Part shown: piece after piece, positions 31,681-40,467 of the stretch
Layout: each line of letters opens with the position of its first letter
How positions within the stretch are numbered: position 1 is the first letter of the stretch
Assembly (NCBI RefSeq): GCF_024707485.1
Contig: NZ_CP102602.1
Span: 1,302,001-1,366,000 of the forward strand
Origin: Thermococcus thermotolerans
Lineage (GTDB): Archaea; Methanobacteriota_B; Thermococci; Thermococcales; Thermococcaceae
Reading direction: 5' to 3'
Length of the DNA: 64,000 bases
Made by a program: the position numbers and the translations under genes
Notes under the pieces: model-generated
The model's input: the letters and a program-made list of their open reading frames with translations, nothing else
Databases searched by the model: none
What the model was told of the DNA's origin: nothing

Positions 31681-31738
31681 AAAGTTTCCCTCCAAACTTG
31701 ACAAAAATCTCGGAATCTTTCCTTCTCAACTTAACACC

Positions 31739-32647
31739 TCAGCTCATCTCCAGCATCCTCTCTATGGCCTTCCTGGCCTTCCGGGCTATCTCCTCCGGCA
31801 CTTCAACCTCATACTTCATGTCCCTGAGGGCCTCGTATATGTGGTTGAGCGTTATGGCCTTCATTCCTATGCAGACCGCATCCTCCTTAGCCGGGTGGAA
31901 CTTGATATCGGGGTAGAGCTTCCCGAGCCTGTACACCATCTCATGCTCCGTGAAGACGACCCACTCGTTCCACTCCCTTGCGCGCCTTATCATCCCTCCG
32001 GTGGAGACTATGATGTCCGCCTTTTCCTGAACTTCCGGCTCGCACTCCGGGTGAACCATCAGCTTGGCGTTGGGGTAGAGCTTCCTAGCGCGTTCGACGT
32101 CCTCAAGGGTGAACTGCCTGTGCACGTAGCAGTGCCCGTACTCTGGCACGGGAATAACCTTCTTGCCGGTCTGTTTGGCCACGTAGTTCGCCAAGTTCTT
32201 ATCCGGCCCGAAGATGATGACATCGGAATCGAGCTTTTCAACTATCCTGACCGCGTTGGCCGAGGTTACGGTCACGTCGGCGTAGGCCTTGGTCTCGGCC
32301 GTTGTGTTGACGTAGAGAACCACCGGAGCGTTCGGATACTGCTCCTTGGCCCTGAGGATGTGCTCGACCTTCAGCATGTTGGCCATGGCGCAGGTTGCCC
32401 GCTTGCTCGGAAGCAGGACCCTCTTCTCGGGGTTGAGGATTTTGGCAGTTTCTGCCATGAAGTCCACTCCCGCGAAGACTATGACGTCGGAATCAACGTT
32501 GACGGCCTTCCTCGCGAGCTCAAGGCTGTCGCCGAGGAAATCGGCTATGTCCTGGATTTCAGGCAGCTGGTAGTTGTGGGCCATGATTATAGCGTTGCGC
32601 TCCTCCTTCAGGCGTTCAATCTCCCGCACGAGTTCTTCAATTTTCAT
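31739..32647 (-). CDS. nadA: Quinolinate synthase A
   Basis: This is a 302-residue [4Fe-4S] enzyme condensing iminoaspartate with dihydroxyacetone phosphate. The three cluster ligands fall at Cys86 (ATCAMAN), Cys173 (GHCYVH) and Cys259 (AVCIGMK), with the same spacing as in characterised Nad[17 protein letters not shown] and HPECEPEVQ bind substrate. A GAGGTGAG site precedes the ATG. It lies between nadB and nadC. Confidence 0.95.
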
Positions 32648-36027: not shown

Positions 36028-36382
36028 ATGGAGGCAGCGGTAAGGTTGAACATAAGGGGGGAGGGCCAAACCCTCCGCTGATGTAAGCCTTAAGAAGGGT
36101 CTTGGTTTTGAGGAGCTGTTGGGCGAAATCCTGAAGGAAGGTCTCTTCTGGGCGGCCCTCGGCCGGCCGTCGGAGGTCATGCCGTTTCTGAGGGGCAAGC
36201 TCTTGAGCAACGGCATCGGTGTTGACAACGGGCGCAGGGAATACCTGGAGTACCTGCTCGACGACCTGGAAAGGTTCTACAAGAGGGTGTCGTGGAGCGG
36301 GGAAATTGAAAAACGCCACTGGAAGGCCCTAAAGTCATTCCACAGGGACATAGTTTCGGTGATTTTCTCCGAGAGGGCTTAG
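36028..36382 (+). pseudogene. Frameshifted small gene, about 118 aa if repaired
   Basis: ATG 36028 follows GGTGAT by 4 bp and encodes MEAAVRLNIRGEGQTLR before TGA at 36079. One base on, the frame reads DVSLKKGLGFEELLGEIL and stays open to TAG 36382 through a clean alpha-helical, charged sequence (PFLRGKLLSNGIGV, LDDLERFYKRVSW). Removing one base near 36079 restores a single protein. The downstream part has no start better than TTG 36119. This may be a true mutation, a sequencing error or a recoding site. No family is recognised. Confidence 0.5.
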
Positions 36383-36400
36383 CTTTTTAACCCCTCTTTC
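36379..36400. repeat. Left copy of a 22-bp perfect direct repeat
   Basis: TTAGCTTTTTAACCCC plus six more bases, identical to 38741-38762. The left copy covers the stop of the frameshifted gene. The right copy forms the promoter of the C/D RNA. The pair brackets two genes of low GC. Confidence 0.65.
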
Positions 36401-36412
36401 TCTGCTTGTCAT

Positions 36413-37729
36413 TTATCTTCTTCTCGCCTTAGCTATCCCTCCGATAAAGAGCAGTACAAAGGTCACGCCGAGGAGGCTTAACCAGCGAATCATCACCCGA
36501 TTCACCGGGAGTTTAATGGGTTTAAGCGTATATCCATCAAAGTAGGCTAACTCTTTCCCATTTGAGAGCAGACAACCGTTGCTGCAATCGGCCAGTATAA
36601 CGTTAAAGGGAATTTTGAGGCTTTTTCCATCGTAGCTTAACAGGGTGCCGTTGATTGTGACGTCTTTTCCGTTTAACTTCAACGGCGATTTAACAACCTG
36701 CCTTCCCTTAAAAACAATCTGGGGATAATTTCGCCGGCAGGTTCCCGTCAGGTTTGAGGAGTTACCGATTTTTTCAACGCCCTTCCGAGATACGAGAAAG
36801 TAATTCAGGGTTCTCTCGTGACAGCTCCGAGAGTAGTTTCCCGTTCTGTTGCACCAGTACAGGTACTTCCTGACAACCCACTCTCCACCCTGATAGCCGA
36901 GAAGGTCGAGGTAAACGTGCTCCCCCTTCTCCTTGGCAAAGGAGTCAATGGGGATGAGCCAGTAGTTACCGTTTGGGGATATAATCTGGAGGTAGTACTT
37001 CCAGACCGAGGCGTTGTAGAAGATCACTTTAAACCAGTTGCTGTCCAGGGCGGCAAAGTGAGTGCCATTAAAGCACAGACCTCCCACGGAGAGGTTTGCA
37101 GGGGTTAGATTCCTGAAAACAAGGCGGGAACCGTTGAGGGCGATGAGAAAGAGCTCGCTCTGGTAGCTCATCGGGTCATTCCCCTCAATGAGATAACCGC
37201 TCGGCAGCTCCCATACTCCTAATAAATACAGCGAGCTATCAGGGCTTGGGGGAAAGACCCTGTAAATTTTATCGCCGACTATGGCGTACCAGTCGTAGTA
37301 ATCTCCCCTCTGGGTTGACCAATCGGCCTCGAGGAACAGGTAGAACTTGCCGTTCCAGTAGATCTCACTGCCTACTCCCCAGTTGTCCGTCTCGGAGTAA
37401 TTTCCCAGGAAATGAAGCTTCCCGTCGTAGATGTAGAGCCCGAAATCCTGGAGGTACGGCCCCTTTGAGAGGTTCCTGTAGAGGAGCACGCTGTCTCCAG
37501 TCGAGTGTATGAAGGTCAAGTTCGGGAAAGTTGCGTTCAAAAGCTTGAAGCCTTTTCCGGGCTCAAAAAACCAGAGCTGAGTTGTGTTGTTTGAGTGATG
37601 AGTCAAAACAAGAAAACCGTCGTGGTAGTGGATTATGCCAGTAATCTCCGGCTCGCTGGCCAGAACATTGGAAGAAATTAGAAAGCTCAAAAAGAAGAAC
37701 ACAAATACTGGCACAACACGCTCCTTCAT
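36413..37729 (-). CDS. Secreted, C-terminally anchored protein of unknown function
   Basis: This is a 438-residue protein with an N-terminal signal (ERVVPVFVFFFLSFLISS, ending ASEPEIT), a large beta-rich ectodomain with about 15 NxT/S sequons and several cysteines, and a C-terminal hydrophobic anchor (WLSLLGVTFVLLFIGGIA) followed by KARRR. Repeated short strands (IYDGKLHFLG, YWNGKFYLFL) hint at a beta-propeller. GGTGA spans the previous stop, so it is coupled to the upstream DUF4855-like gene. The role is not known. The ectodomain faces outside. Confidence 0.7.
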   Translation of the reverse strand: MKERVVPVFVFFFLSFLISSNVLASEPEITGIIHYHDGFLVLTHHSNNTTQLWFFEPGKGFKLLNATFPNLTFIHSTGDSVLLYRNLSKGPYLQDFGLYIYDGKLHFLGNYSETDNWGVGSEIYWNGKFYLFLEADWSTQRGDYYDWYAIVGDKIYRVFPPSPDSSLYLLGVWELPSGYLIEGNDPMSYQSELFLIALNGSRLVFRNLTPANLSVGGLCFNGTHFAALDSNWFKVIFYNASVWKYYLQIISPNGNYWLIPIDSFAKEKGEHVYLDLLGYQGGEWVVRKYLYWCNRTGNYSRSCHERTLNYFLVSRKGVEKIGNSSNLTGTCRRNYPQIVFKGRQVVKSPLKLNGKDVTINGTLLSYDGKSLKIPFNVILADCSNGCLLSNGKELAYFDGYTLKPIKLPVNRVMIRWLSLLGVTFVLLFIGGIAKARRR

Positions 37730-37733
37730 CACT

Positions 37734-38651
37734 TCACCATCCTAGACAGTGGCTCCTCATCTCTTCAAAAGTGTTGCCTCTTTTGTCAAAATAATATGCC
37801 CTGTCTGACCACAAGTAACCCAGCGCCTCCCTCTGGGCCTTTACATAGTCGCAAGCATACTCCCAGTTGGCTTGATAATTTAAATCGCCATCTACTTCCA
37901 TCTCGATGGAGACATTTGAAGGCATAAATTTGTGTATGTCCCTCAGAATGTTCACTAAAAGATTATAGGTGTATACTATGCCATGCTCTAGAAGTATCTT
38001 TTTAGTCTTGTTTTCGGTGTTGCGCATCTTTTTATTTGCAAAGTAGTAACCCGGCTGAATGAAAACCTTGTTGAAGTAGTTCGCTATATTGGGAACGTCC
38101 GTTTCATAAGCTACTGCCTCTAAAACATCCTGTTCCGATGAAAAATATCTGCTCACAAAGAGACTTCTCAAGCTTGGTATCCAGATAAACTGGTAATCCT
38201 GCCCGTATTCTCTTCTGTTCTCCATTATTCTACCCCATATAGCCTCTATCGTGTATCTACTCAGCTCTCCCGCTTGAATATACCTAATGTTTTCCAGTGA
38301 CCAATAAAATCCCTTGAGTCTTGAACTACCCCAAGCGGCAGCACCATCAATCCAGCCAAGCCAATAGTTCAAGTCTCTGGCATGAGGCTTTTGTTGATAT
38401 TTGAAGTATGGAATCTCCACAATGTAGTTTCTGCCACTTAACCACTGGTTTTCTATCTTCTCTATCAACTCTCCTGCATCATTGTATCCATTGTTGTATC
38501 CTGCTCCAGAATATTTGGTTGTGAGGCCCTCAGTTCCTCCTTCTCCCCCATCGGTAACGATGATGTAATCAAACTTCTGGTCGTTCCAATCACTTAGGAC
38601 CTCGTACTCTGACCCGTTCCACTTATAATACCACAATCCCCAGGTCGCCAT
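37734..38651 (-). CDS. DUF4855-like protein
   Basis: This is a 305-residue protein starting MATWGLWYYKWNGSEY with GGTGAT 4 bp before ATG 38651. DYIIVTDGG, WLGWIDGAAAWGSSRLKGFYWSLE and FIWIPSLR recall the DUF4855 family, thought to be a glycoside-hydrolase-like barrel; the resemblance is from memory and uncertain. No signal peptide is seen with this start. It is more AT-rich than its surroundings and is coupled to the secreted protein after it. Confidence 0.55.
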   Translation of the reverse strand: MATWGLWYYKWNGSEYEVLSDWNDQKFDYIIVTDGGEGGTEGLTTKYSGAGYNNGYNDAGELIEKIENQWLSGRNYIVEIPYFKYQQKPHARDLNYWLGWIDGAAAWGSSRLKGFYWSLENIRYIQAGELSRYTIEAIWGRIMENRREYGQDYQFIWIPSLRSLFVSRYFSSEQDVLEAVAYETDVPNIANYFNKVFIQPGYYFANKKMRNTENKTKKILLEHGIVYTYNLLVNILRDIHKFMPSNVSIEMEVDGDLNYQANWEYACDYVKAQREALGYLWSDRAYYFDKRGNTFEEMRSHCLGW

Positions 38652-38740
38652 CTGAATCACCTTCAAACTTATCAACAAGAACTTTGGATAGTAGTATATA
38701 AACTTTTTCCACCCAATGGTTATTATTAACTAAGCACAGG

Positions 38741-38762
38741 TTAGCTTTTTAACCCCTCTTTC
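38741..38762. repeat. Right copy of the 22-bp direct repeat; contains sRNA TATA box
   Basis: Identical to 36379-36400. GCTTTTTAAC inside it lies about 25 bp before the C/D RNA, so this copy acts as promoter. Confidence 0.65.
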
Positions 38763-38771
38763 CTACTCCCC

Positions 38772-38832
38772 CAGGGATGATGAGGGAAGTTTCGTCCGAG
38801 CGGTGAGGAAACTCGCATGGGCTGACCGCCCT
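38772..38832 (+). ncRNA. C/D box small guide RNA
   Basis: All four boxes are present with ideal spacing: C ATGATGA (38777-38783), 12-nt guide, D' CCGA (38796-38799), 3-nt loop, C' GTGAGGA (38803-38809), 12-nt guide, D CTGA (38822-38825). A TATA box lies at about 38744-38753. Guides GGGAAGTTTCGT and AACTCGCATGGG would pair with ACGAAACTTCCC and CCCATGCGAGTT; I cannot name the rRNA or tRNA targets. The terminal stem is weak (about 2 bp), which is common in these RNAs. Confidence 0.8.
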
Positions 38833-38857
38833 CCAAAGACCTTTTCTTATTCTGCGC

Positions 38858-40339
38858 TCATCTCAGCTCCTCCCTAGTAAGGGGTCTTACTCCGAGTTCC
38901 TGACAGAGCCGGAGCGCCTTCTCGGTGAACCCTGCCTTTGAGAAGAAGAACATCTTGGCGCTGCCGAATTCGTCCCTCACCTTTTCGACAAATTCTTTGA
39001 CATCCTTATACGAGGCCGGACGGCTCCTCCACTTGACTTCGAGCACATGCGGCACGTCTCCGAAGGCAACCCCATCAAACTCCATGTCGCCCCTGCGGTA
39101 GGGCTTAAATTCAAGACCCAGAGTCCTTCCAAGCCTTTCCCTCACCCAAGCCTCACCCGTAAGGCCAAGCTCCGTTTTTGCCTTCAGAAACTTCTCTTCA
39201 AGCTCTTTAATGAGCTCCTCACGCAGTCTCTCCCGGCGGAGTTCCAGTCCGGTGATACCGAGATAGGTTTTGGCAAGCCAGAAACGCATTAGCTTGTCTG
39301 CAAAATAATACCTGCCATTTTCCTTGACTATTAAGTCCGTCCTGAGCAAAAACTTCAGGTAGTTTGAGACCTCCCCGCTCGGCTTTCCAAGCTGTTTGGC
39401 GATCTCAGAGAGCCTCAGCCCTTCCTCTCTGGCAAGGGTAAGAAGTATCTCCCTGTGGACTGCCCCTCTGTAAGCTCTCGAAAGGGATTCATTGAACACG
39501 TAATCGAGATGCATGTAAATCTCCCCAGTCTCAGTAAGGAGCTCCGTGAGGAAAGCGTACTCGACCTCTCTCGGTCCAGCTCTCTCAACTCCCTCTTCAA
39601 CAATCCTCCTGCAGACTGCATGGACGTAGAACGGATGCCCCCCAGTCAGCCGGTAAACTGCCTCAAGGGCTGAGTGGGAGTAAGCCACGCCGGAGTTCTT
39701 GAGTATGCTTTTGGCAAGCTCGAAGGTATCCTCCTTGGGTAATCCCTGCAGATAGATCCTCCTAAACTGGCCAAAGAACGGTTTCTCGGGGGACAGTATC
39801 TCCTCCATCATGCTCACTGCCGAGCCGGAGATGAAATAAGCAACCCGTTTCTCCTTCTCCGTGATGGCCCTCATCACCTCAAGGAACCTGGAAAGGTTCT
39901 TAACCTCCTGGAACTCATCGAGGATGAAGATGGCTCTCTCACCAAGCTTCTCCAGAATCCTCTCTTGGACTTCAAAAAGAGTTTCCAGAGTACCATTTTT
40001 AATGGCTTTGGCCTCCTCACCAACGCCGAGCTTAGCTGCGAGTATGAGCAGGTCATCCCAGTTCAAAAGGTGAATTCTTTCAACGTTGAGTTTTTTGACC
40101 TGGGATAGCTCATAGAGCAGTTCACGGGTGTATGCAAAGATGAAGGAGTCTATGCTTCCAATCCTTTGAAGGTTGAGATAAGGTACCACCCCGTCGGCTT
40201 CTTCCTTGAATTTGAGAAGGAGCTCTGTCTTGCCCATCCTCCTTGGACCTATTACTGCGATGTTTACTTTGTGCCCTTCTTTGAGGGCTTTGTAGGCAGA
40301 GTGCAGAATTCTCAACTCTCTTTTCCTATCCACGAACAT
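38858..40339 (-). CDS. Archaeal ATPase with C-terminal nuclease-like domain
   Basis: This is a 493-residue protein. The N-terminal AAA/STAND-type ATPase has a Walker A variant GPRRMGKTELL (about 31-41), Walker B ERAIFILDEFQEV (about 134-146) and sensor FISGSAVSMM. A winged helix follows near 295-340 (LRLSEIAKQLGKPSGEVSNYL). The end carries a DUF234/PD-(D/E)XK-like core (MEFDGVAFGD, HVLEVKWRSRP). The family is abundant in hyperthermophiles and its role is undefined, perhaps defence or mobile-element related. Direct repeats lie in its promoter. Confidence 0.82.
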   Translation of the reverse strand: MFVDRKRELRILHSAYKALKEGHKVNIAVIGPRRMGKTELLLKFKEEADGVVPYLNLQRIGSIDSFIFAYTRELLYELSQVKKLNVERIHLLNWDDLLILAAKLGVGEEAKAIKNGTLETLFEVQERILEKLGERAIFILDEFQEVKNLSRFLEVMRAITEKEKRVAYFISGSAVSMMEEILSPEKPFFGQFRRIYLQGLPKEDTFELAKSILKNSGVAYSHSALEAVYRLTGGHPFYVHAVCRRIVEEGVERAGPREVEYAFLTELLTETGEIYMHLDYVFNESLSRAYRGAVHREILLTLAREEGLRLSEIAKQLGKPSGEVSNYLKFLLRTDLIVKENGRYYFADKLMRFWLAKTYLGITGLELRRERLREELIKELEEKFLKAKTELGLTGEAWVRERLGRTLGLEFKPYRRGDMEFDGVAFGDVPHVLEVKWRSRPASYKDVKEFVEKVRDEFGSAKMFFFSKAGFTEKALRLCQELGVRPLTREELR

Positions 40340-40348
40340 GGTTCATCA

Positions 40349-40392
40349 CATTATAGTTTTATGCATAAAATTGTAATGCATTATACTTTTAT
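40349..40392. promoter_or_regulatory. Two 14-bp direct repeats before the ATPase gene
   Basis: CATTATAGTTTTAT (40349-40362) and CATTATACTTTTAT (40379-40392) differ at one base and lie 30 bp apart, about three helical turns. A TATGCATAA palindrome lies between. They sit just before the ATPase ATG (40339), possible operator sites. Confidence 0.4.
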
Positions 40393-40467
40393 ACCTTTCG
40401 CGGGAGGCAAATCTTCAGAAGCCCAACCCTTTTAAACGGCTCTTCTCTTCGCTCATCGGGAGGAAAA

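Follow-up and report, generated by a model that had tools for sequence, protein, structure and literature searches.

Why should the promoter of a small RNA occur twice in an archaeal genome, once in front of the RNA gene that it serves and once more than two kilobases away, at the end of a protein gene? The question is raised by a locus of Thermococcus thermotolerans, found in a window of 64,000 nucleotides (nt) of contig NZ_CP102602.1 (positions 1,302,001 to 1,366,000; the window is the whole stretch of DNA that was analysed, and coordinates given without a genome label refer to it), where positions 36379-36400 and 38741-38762 on the forward strand carry the same 22-mer, TTAGCTTTTTAACCCCTCTTTC, with a start-to-start distance of 2362 nt. 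The left copy starts one base ahead of the stop codon of a small protein gene and holds this TAG stop and a T5 run, a type of run that ends archaeal transcripts. The right copy is the promoter of a C/D box small RNA (sRNA), is conserved upstream of this sRNA in relatives, and indeed carries the TATA element that had been assigned to it, a TATA-like TTTTTAA about 28 nt upstream of the RNA (in T. kodakarensis the TATA box is reported at a median of 23 bp upstream of the start; PMC4247193). Between the two copies lie two open reading frames (ORFs), both on the reverse strand, which together form the cassette considered here. We compared the locus with 94 genomes of the family (their labels are G-numbers, G000 being the genome of the window), and on balance we lean towards the reading that the cassette moves between Thermococcus-type species by recombination at the conserved sRNA gene and its promoter.

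The two 22-mers are identical, as originally noted, and this identity is far beyond chance. The exact 22-mer occurs at only two places in the whole genome (2,070,864 bases), none of 100 shuffles of the window contained a match to it with up to three mismatches, and Markov simulations of the 5-kb region, 300 in all, each had a longest repeat of 10-15 nt. With up to three mismatches allowed, the genome holds three places, the third (G000:C1:1626055-1626076, L173) having two mismatches; there, a 20-nt match to the 22-mer forms the stop/promoter overlap of an unrelated pair of protein genes. This 20-mer overlap is present in 11 of the 13 loci compared, and no tRNA genes were found near it in five loci scanned, four of them being that place. 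The 22-mer is thus not a common dispersed promoter sequence in the genome of the window, yet it does have this 20-nt match at an unrelated gene pair. For a 16-mer, TTAGCTTTTTAACCCC, a raw count gave 10 matches in viral contigs.

The state of the site without the cassette was clear from the relatives. The sRNA (38773-38827, forward strand), with or without its promoter, and the small gene were each matched in 86 of the 94 family genomes, and sRNA loci were compared for 57 genomes of the same genus (window included) and eight of other genera; G002, G006, G026 and G082 gave no sRNA match (the contig of G082 is short and lacks the sRNA) and were left out of the counts of filled and empty sites. 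The sRNA directly follows the small gene in 50 of the 57 loci of the genus, 33-55 nt after the end of the small-gene match, and in all 50 the two are joined with one copy of the promoter, the single counterpart of the left repeat copy; such a joined site with one copy is what had been predicted for relatives if the cassette had entered at the sRNA promoter and doubled it. The gap is exactly 33 nt in 30 of the empty loci, where the stop codon lies within the sRNA promoter (..GGGCTTAGCTTTTTAACCCC.. or close variants). Two of the 50 empty genomes, G068 and G031, carry the cassette elsewhere. In the other genera the small gene and the sRNA are 40-95 nt apart in six loci and 1119 nt apart in one, and the stretch compared for the eighth yielded no small gene. 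Because a profile search found gene 1 of the cassette in none of the 33 genomes that belong to other genera of the family, the empty site is ancestral and the filled site is the derived state. Among the 65 loci, the 22-mer of G000 is shared, at a fixed distance from the sRNA, only with the single copy of G001; this fits a doubling of the local promoter, and later homogenisation would look alike.

Seven of the 57 sites are filled (G000, G069, G070, G075, G022, G076 and G011). Exact flanking repeats of 22 nt were found in G000 and in G070, which carry different versions of the cassette (22/22 in both), of 16 nt in G069 (20/22 when aligned without gaps) and of 13 nt in G075, and the right edge (TAARCACAGG/TTAGC) is similar in G000, G069 and G070, with G075 coming close to it. 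G022, G076 and G011 showed no promoter repeat of at least 9 nt up to a distance of 300 nt from the cassette; G022 and G076 keep a recognisable left relic. In G011 two tandem, diverged copies of gene 1 lie at the sRNA site (C1, about 251.8-254.4 kb, L101).

Gene 1 was found at one other place, the gap between nadA and nadC in G068, G031 and G082, where flanking repeats reach at most 10 nt, a length seen in a single one of these genomes, and no overlap of the stop/promoter type was seen. Among relatives this gap (31704-31739 in the window) varies in length between 4 nt and 2.5 kb and is often occupied by other DNA, in three of them by the cassette. A cassette without repeats, which would have spoken against a duplication on entry, is therefore what these three genomes and three of the seven filled sRNA sites present, while the other four filled sites do have repeats. 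The three nadA-nadC cassettes and the three sRNA sites without a clear repeat suggest that duplication is a property of the sRNA site and not of the cassette. Other loci with genes like gene 2 (the DUF4855-like genes discussed below) were scanned as well (19 loci selected from all matches, 18 of them with a gene 2 match): 15 of the 18 had no exact flanking repeat of at least 15 nt within 3.5 kb, and three had one, in one case long repeats next to two such genes in tandem and in no case the 22-mer.

How often the site was filled was judged from a tree of the flanks (51 rows, neighbouring proteins), in which five of the seven filled genomes could be placed, G075 and G076 being dropped for having too few columns. 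Each of these five is isolated among empty loci, which requires a minimum of five changes. The cassette protein tree joins G000, G075 and G069 (support 100/99) and G070, G022 and G076 (100/98) and rejects a grouping of G000 with G070 (approximately unbiased test, p-AU 1.5e-57), whereas in the flank tree G000 and G070 fall in one clade of 13 rows (support 99), with 96% identity in IMPDH and 91% in the small gene. Likewise, the nearest relatives G068 and G069 have flank proteins that are 97-99% identical and gene 1 versions that are 50% alike and lie at different sites. The isolation of the filled genomes and the contradiction between cassette and flanks make several acquisitions likely; repeated acquisition or replacement is the simplest reading, with an insertion site that is real, derived and probably recurrent. 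The insertion at the sRNA promoter put forward in the original prediction is supported, and its apparent recurrence had not been foreseen.

In one pair of genomes, G022 and G076, cassette, promoter and sRNA moved as one block. The two are 98% identical in the 5' region of the cassette, 100% in the promoter and 91% in gene 1, against 77% and 80% in the flanking genes, and identity drops just past the sRNA; the sRNAs themselves are identical, but so are those of many others. On contig C157 of G076 (L041, about 355-405) a native-type promoter relic and the first ~20 nt of the sRNA stand to the left of the cassette, and a promoter of the G022 type with its sRNA stands to the right; the left relic resembles the sequences of G016 and G031, as does the small gene of G076. 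Here the sRNA was the right-hand homology, the left joint is irregular, and two promoters arise without any transposition. A 100% identity between the 5' regions of G070 and G076 proved to be spurious, caused by end gaps between sequences that differ in length, and was discarded.

Taking as observed the filled and empty sites, the derived state, the isolated filled lineages, the discordant cassette tree and the G022/G076 block, we propose the following course of events. In the ground state the stop codon of the small gene, the T-run and the TATA box of the sRNA form one shared sequence, and in the genome of the window the cassette has come to lie exactly in it, with the left copy closing the small gene and the right copy driving the sRNA. 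Cassette DNA would be taken up and recombined at the locus, the nearly invariant sRNA and its promoter serving as homology; reports of natural transformation exist for T. kodakarensis, T. barophilus and P. furiosus, and in P. furiosus COM1 a homology of 40 bp is enough (PMC5099854). If the cassette arrived without duplication, one neighbour would lose a function, and filled sites would tend to carry direct repeats because arrivals that leave a usable copy of the shared sequence for both neighbours would persist best; the doubling of the promoter may in this way let both neighbours keep working. The repeats should also permit precise loss of the cassette. At nadA-nadC, where no overlap was seen, no duplication would be needed, and none was seen. 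Ordinary enzymes suffice for this movement; that a dedicated recombinase takes part is less likely.

Several points weigh against recombination at the sRNA gene. For G000, G070, G069 and G075, near relatives provide the closest matches to the promoter and to both flanks, and the exchange points would therefore lie within about 20 bp, bounded by the repeat. This is short for ordinary recombination, for which at least 500 bp of homology is cited in T. kodakarensis; the paper in question also describes a Thermococcus integrase that acts, with low specificity, on stretches down to 104 bp (PMC5495485). Moreover, the left copy of G069 differs from its own right copy at two of 22 positions, which fits local doubling less well, and G011 has no recognisable left copy. 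The flank tree comes from neighbouring genes and a quick search and may itself be recombined, and that selection keeps the duplication is an inference. The sites of G000, G070, G069 and G075 may have arisen by recombination over a short homology, by the action of a recombinase or by precise loss from an insertion of greater age.

The alternative that survives best, although we give it a clearly smaller share of our belief, is a single old insertion with duplication in the ancestor of the genus, kept in a few lineages and elsewhere lost precisely between the repeats. It would account for the common right edge and for the filled tips scattered over the flank tree, and direct repeats allow clean loss. 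However, such a single gain calls for 17 losses as compared to five gains (in a 50-row version of the tree), and it agrees neither with the conflict between cassette tree and flanks nor with the block transfer in G076.

Site-specific integration is, in our judgement, unlikely. According to this explanation the sRNA promoter is a true attachment site of the Thermococcaceae, at which a recombinase encoded elsewhere repeatedly inserts and removes surface-protein cassettes that lack an integrase of their own, with 16-22 bp of the promoter as the core; integration of a circle would give direct repeats and restore the sRNA promoter. One insertion point used in several lineages, the flanks being local on either side, and 22/22 repeats in two genomes agree with it; Thermococcales are known to have integrases, and attachment sites of 11, 13 and >100 bp have been described in archaea (PMC8371274). 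Against it stand the cassette genes, neither of which matched a recombinase in Pfam, NCBIfam or PHROGs, the nadA-nadC cassettes, which have no such repeats, and the lack of a plasmid, phage or viral relative in three pairings (gene 1 against plasmids and against IMG/VR contigs, gene 2 against phages). If it were true, the surface make-up would be switched with neither neighbour harmed, through a core that consists of a stop codon, a terminator-like T-run and a TATA box.

A transposable unit with a 22-bp target-site duplication is very improbable. The two cassette versions of G000 and G070 both show exactly 22 bp, but the exact repeats at other filled sites are of 13 and 16 nt, the cassette genes matched no transposase in Pfam, NCBIfam or PHROGs, and only two sites are used in 94 family genomes, one of them without such a duplication. 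Finally, a mere coincidence, in which two promoters or gene ends of some common type happen to resemble each other and to which the 20-nt match at the unrelated gene pair lends some colour, is effectively refuted by the single copy at the joined site of empty relatives, by the shuffles and Markov simulations and by the repeats in G070, G069 and G075.

The cassette probably encodes a cell-surface protein. Gene 1 (36413-37732, reverse strand), an ORF of 439 amino acids, is of the secreted type, with a predicted N-terminal hydrophobic helix, a beta-rich, propeller-like body, a C-terminal hydrophobic helix and a basic tail. Its structure model has a mean predicted local distance difference test (pLDDT) score of 67, and many propeller/WD proteins are among the 50 fold matches listed (best E 1.3e-5, with low template modelling scores); gene 1 is called propeller-like only. 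By profile, gene 1 was found in 10 of the 94 family genomes, all of this genus; two further and much weaker matches (E 4e-10 and 4e-8) lie close to DUF4855-like genes at other places in the genomes of G070 and G022. A strict peptide-pattern scan of named genomes gave four loci, all from Thermococcus or Thermococcaceae metagenome-assembled genomes, and missed carriers that another genome search detected.

Gene 2 (37734-38651, reverse strand) encodes 305 amino acids from an ATG at 38651, or 314 from a TTG (37734-38678). It had been labelled DUF4855-like, a label that its own sequence does not bear out: the protein of the window did not match PF16147 at E 0.1, nor did its close copy in G075 give a match, and the distant relationship is seen solely in three divergent homologues (E 6e-5, 1e-4 and 0.1), all below the curated cut-off. 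A sequence search of the PDB gave no match, and the model (pLDDT 52) is too weak for naming a fold, possibly TIM-barrel-like at best. Close copies adjoin gene 1 in four other genomes, and matches of any strength occur in 50 of the 94. DUF4855-like genes are multi-copy and patchy throughout the family, with up to seven per genome, several of them with internal stops.

A likely promoter of the cassette, read from the sequence, is AAAAGTTTATATA on the reverse strand (38695-38707), and a similar element is found in G075, G069 and G070. The cassette is low in GC, as had been claimed, with 46.0% (gene 1 49.2%, gene 2 42.5%) against 52.6% for the window, but not extremely so: 59 of 617 sliding windows of its size are equally or more AT-rich, which puts it in the lowest tenth. 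Neither cassette gene matched a PHROG. A reading as a defence system was rejected, PADLOC giving no match for the cassette genes or the small gene.

The small gene (36028-36382, forward strand) deserves attention of its own. It had been described as a frameshifted gene whose end overlaps the left copy; the overlap stands, but the frameshift is common to the relatives, which had not been foreseen, and is not a local lesion. Its ATG (36028) is in frame 0; the conserved body lies in the +1 frame, which stays open from 36056 until the stop codon (36380-36382). A core of AGGRGGG followed by AAACC was found in 81 of the 84 genomes compared (the remaining three matches lie at a contig end), and in 80 of the 81 a start codon in frame 0 precedes it, with a loosely defined motif like a ribosome-binding site for which no control was run. 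In 68 of the 81, none of the codons ATG, GTG and TTG occurs in the +1 frame from the stop ahead of the core (or from where the data end) up to the core itself, and in the other 13 a start candidate is present (eight TTG, three ATG and two GTG). Variation at a proline codon is concentrated at the third base (1.49 bits, against 0 and 0.10 at the first two), and the pattern is only partly that of the +1 frame, two other third positions being invariant and some first positions variable. The arrangement holds in other genera, even where the small gene sits elsewhere. Candidate explanations are a programmed +1 frameshift, an unusual start and a start further inside the body, and the first is favoured because conserved +1 residues precede the body. 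According to a 2021 review, only one programmed frameshift, a -1 shift, is listed for Archaea, besides unconfirmed candidates (PMC8211752). Independently of the cassette, the small gene is a candidate case of archaeal +1 programmed frameshifting that can be tested.

Two observations concern the neighbourhood. The other side of the sRNA (38835-40467) is also prone to insertion, the gap between sRNA and helicase exceeding 100 nt, up to 6.6 kb, in 14 of the 53 loci that include the helicase gene; in the window it holds an archaeal ATPase/helix-turn-helix gene, common to G001, G032 and G073, for which PADLOC gives matches to candidate systems, the best being PDC-S27 (E 3e-11). Further on, two exact direct repeats (44599/46357 and 44650/46408), each 18 nt or longer, have the same spacing of 1758 nt, which suggests a duplicated stretch.

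The site resembles several known systems in part. Like the integrase-borne genomic islands at tRNA genes of Thermococcales, the cassette lies beside a conserved RNA gene, with direct repeats and the RNA gene intact; unlike them, it targets the promoter of a C/D sRNA and consists of one or two genes, and no integrase was found. Of the marks of an integrated element, end repeats are present at 22 nt in two genomes and at 16 and 13 nt in two more and absent from three of the seven filled sites, and no recombinase gene was found inside; of those of a transposon or insertion sequence, neither a transposase nor many duplicated target sites were seen. A term count in a review on archaeal recombinases (PMC8371274) gave no occurrence of 'sRNA', and a limited literature search found nothing relevant on the genes that flank archaeal sRNA genes or on integration at such genes. 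The sRNA shares the conserved layout of C, D', C' and D boxes with archaeal C/D box sRNAs, and its best Rfam match, sR28, scores 34.4 bits, below the gathering score of 39; the likeness to Pfam DUF4855 is confined to the weak matches of the three gene 2 homologues. In genomic hotspots, variable cargo is swapped by homologous recombination between conserved flanks. The locus agrees with these in its fixed spot, in alternative cargo whose tree is discordant with the flanks and, for the one pair G022/G076, in a tract that ends in the conserved flank; it differs in that the anchor is an RNA gene of about 60 nt and in that the overlapped regulatory sequence is doubled. This suggests how a compact archaeal genome may take in genes where no spare base exists, the shared gene end and promoter being doubled so that each copy can keep one job, with precise reversal possible at the doubled site, and a C/D sRNA gene whose sequence and promoter are conserved would thereby join the anchors for the exchange of cassettes between species.

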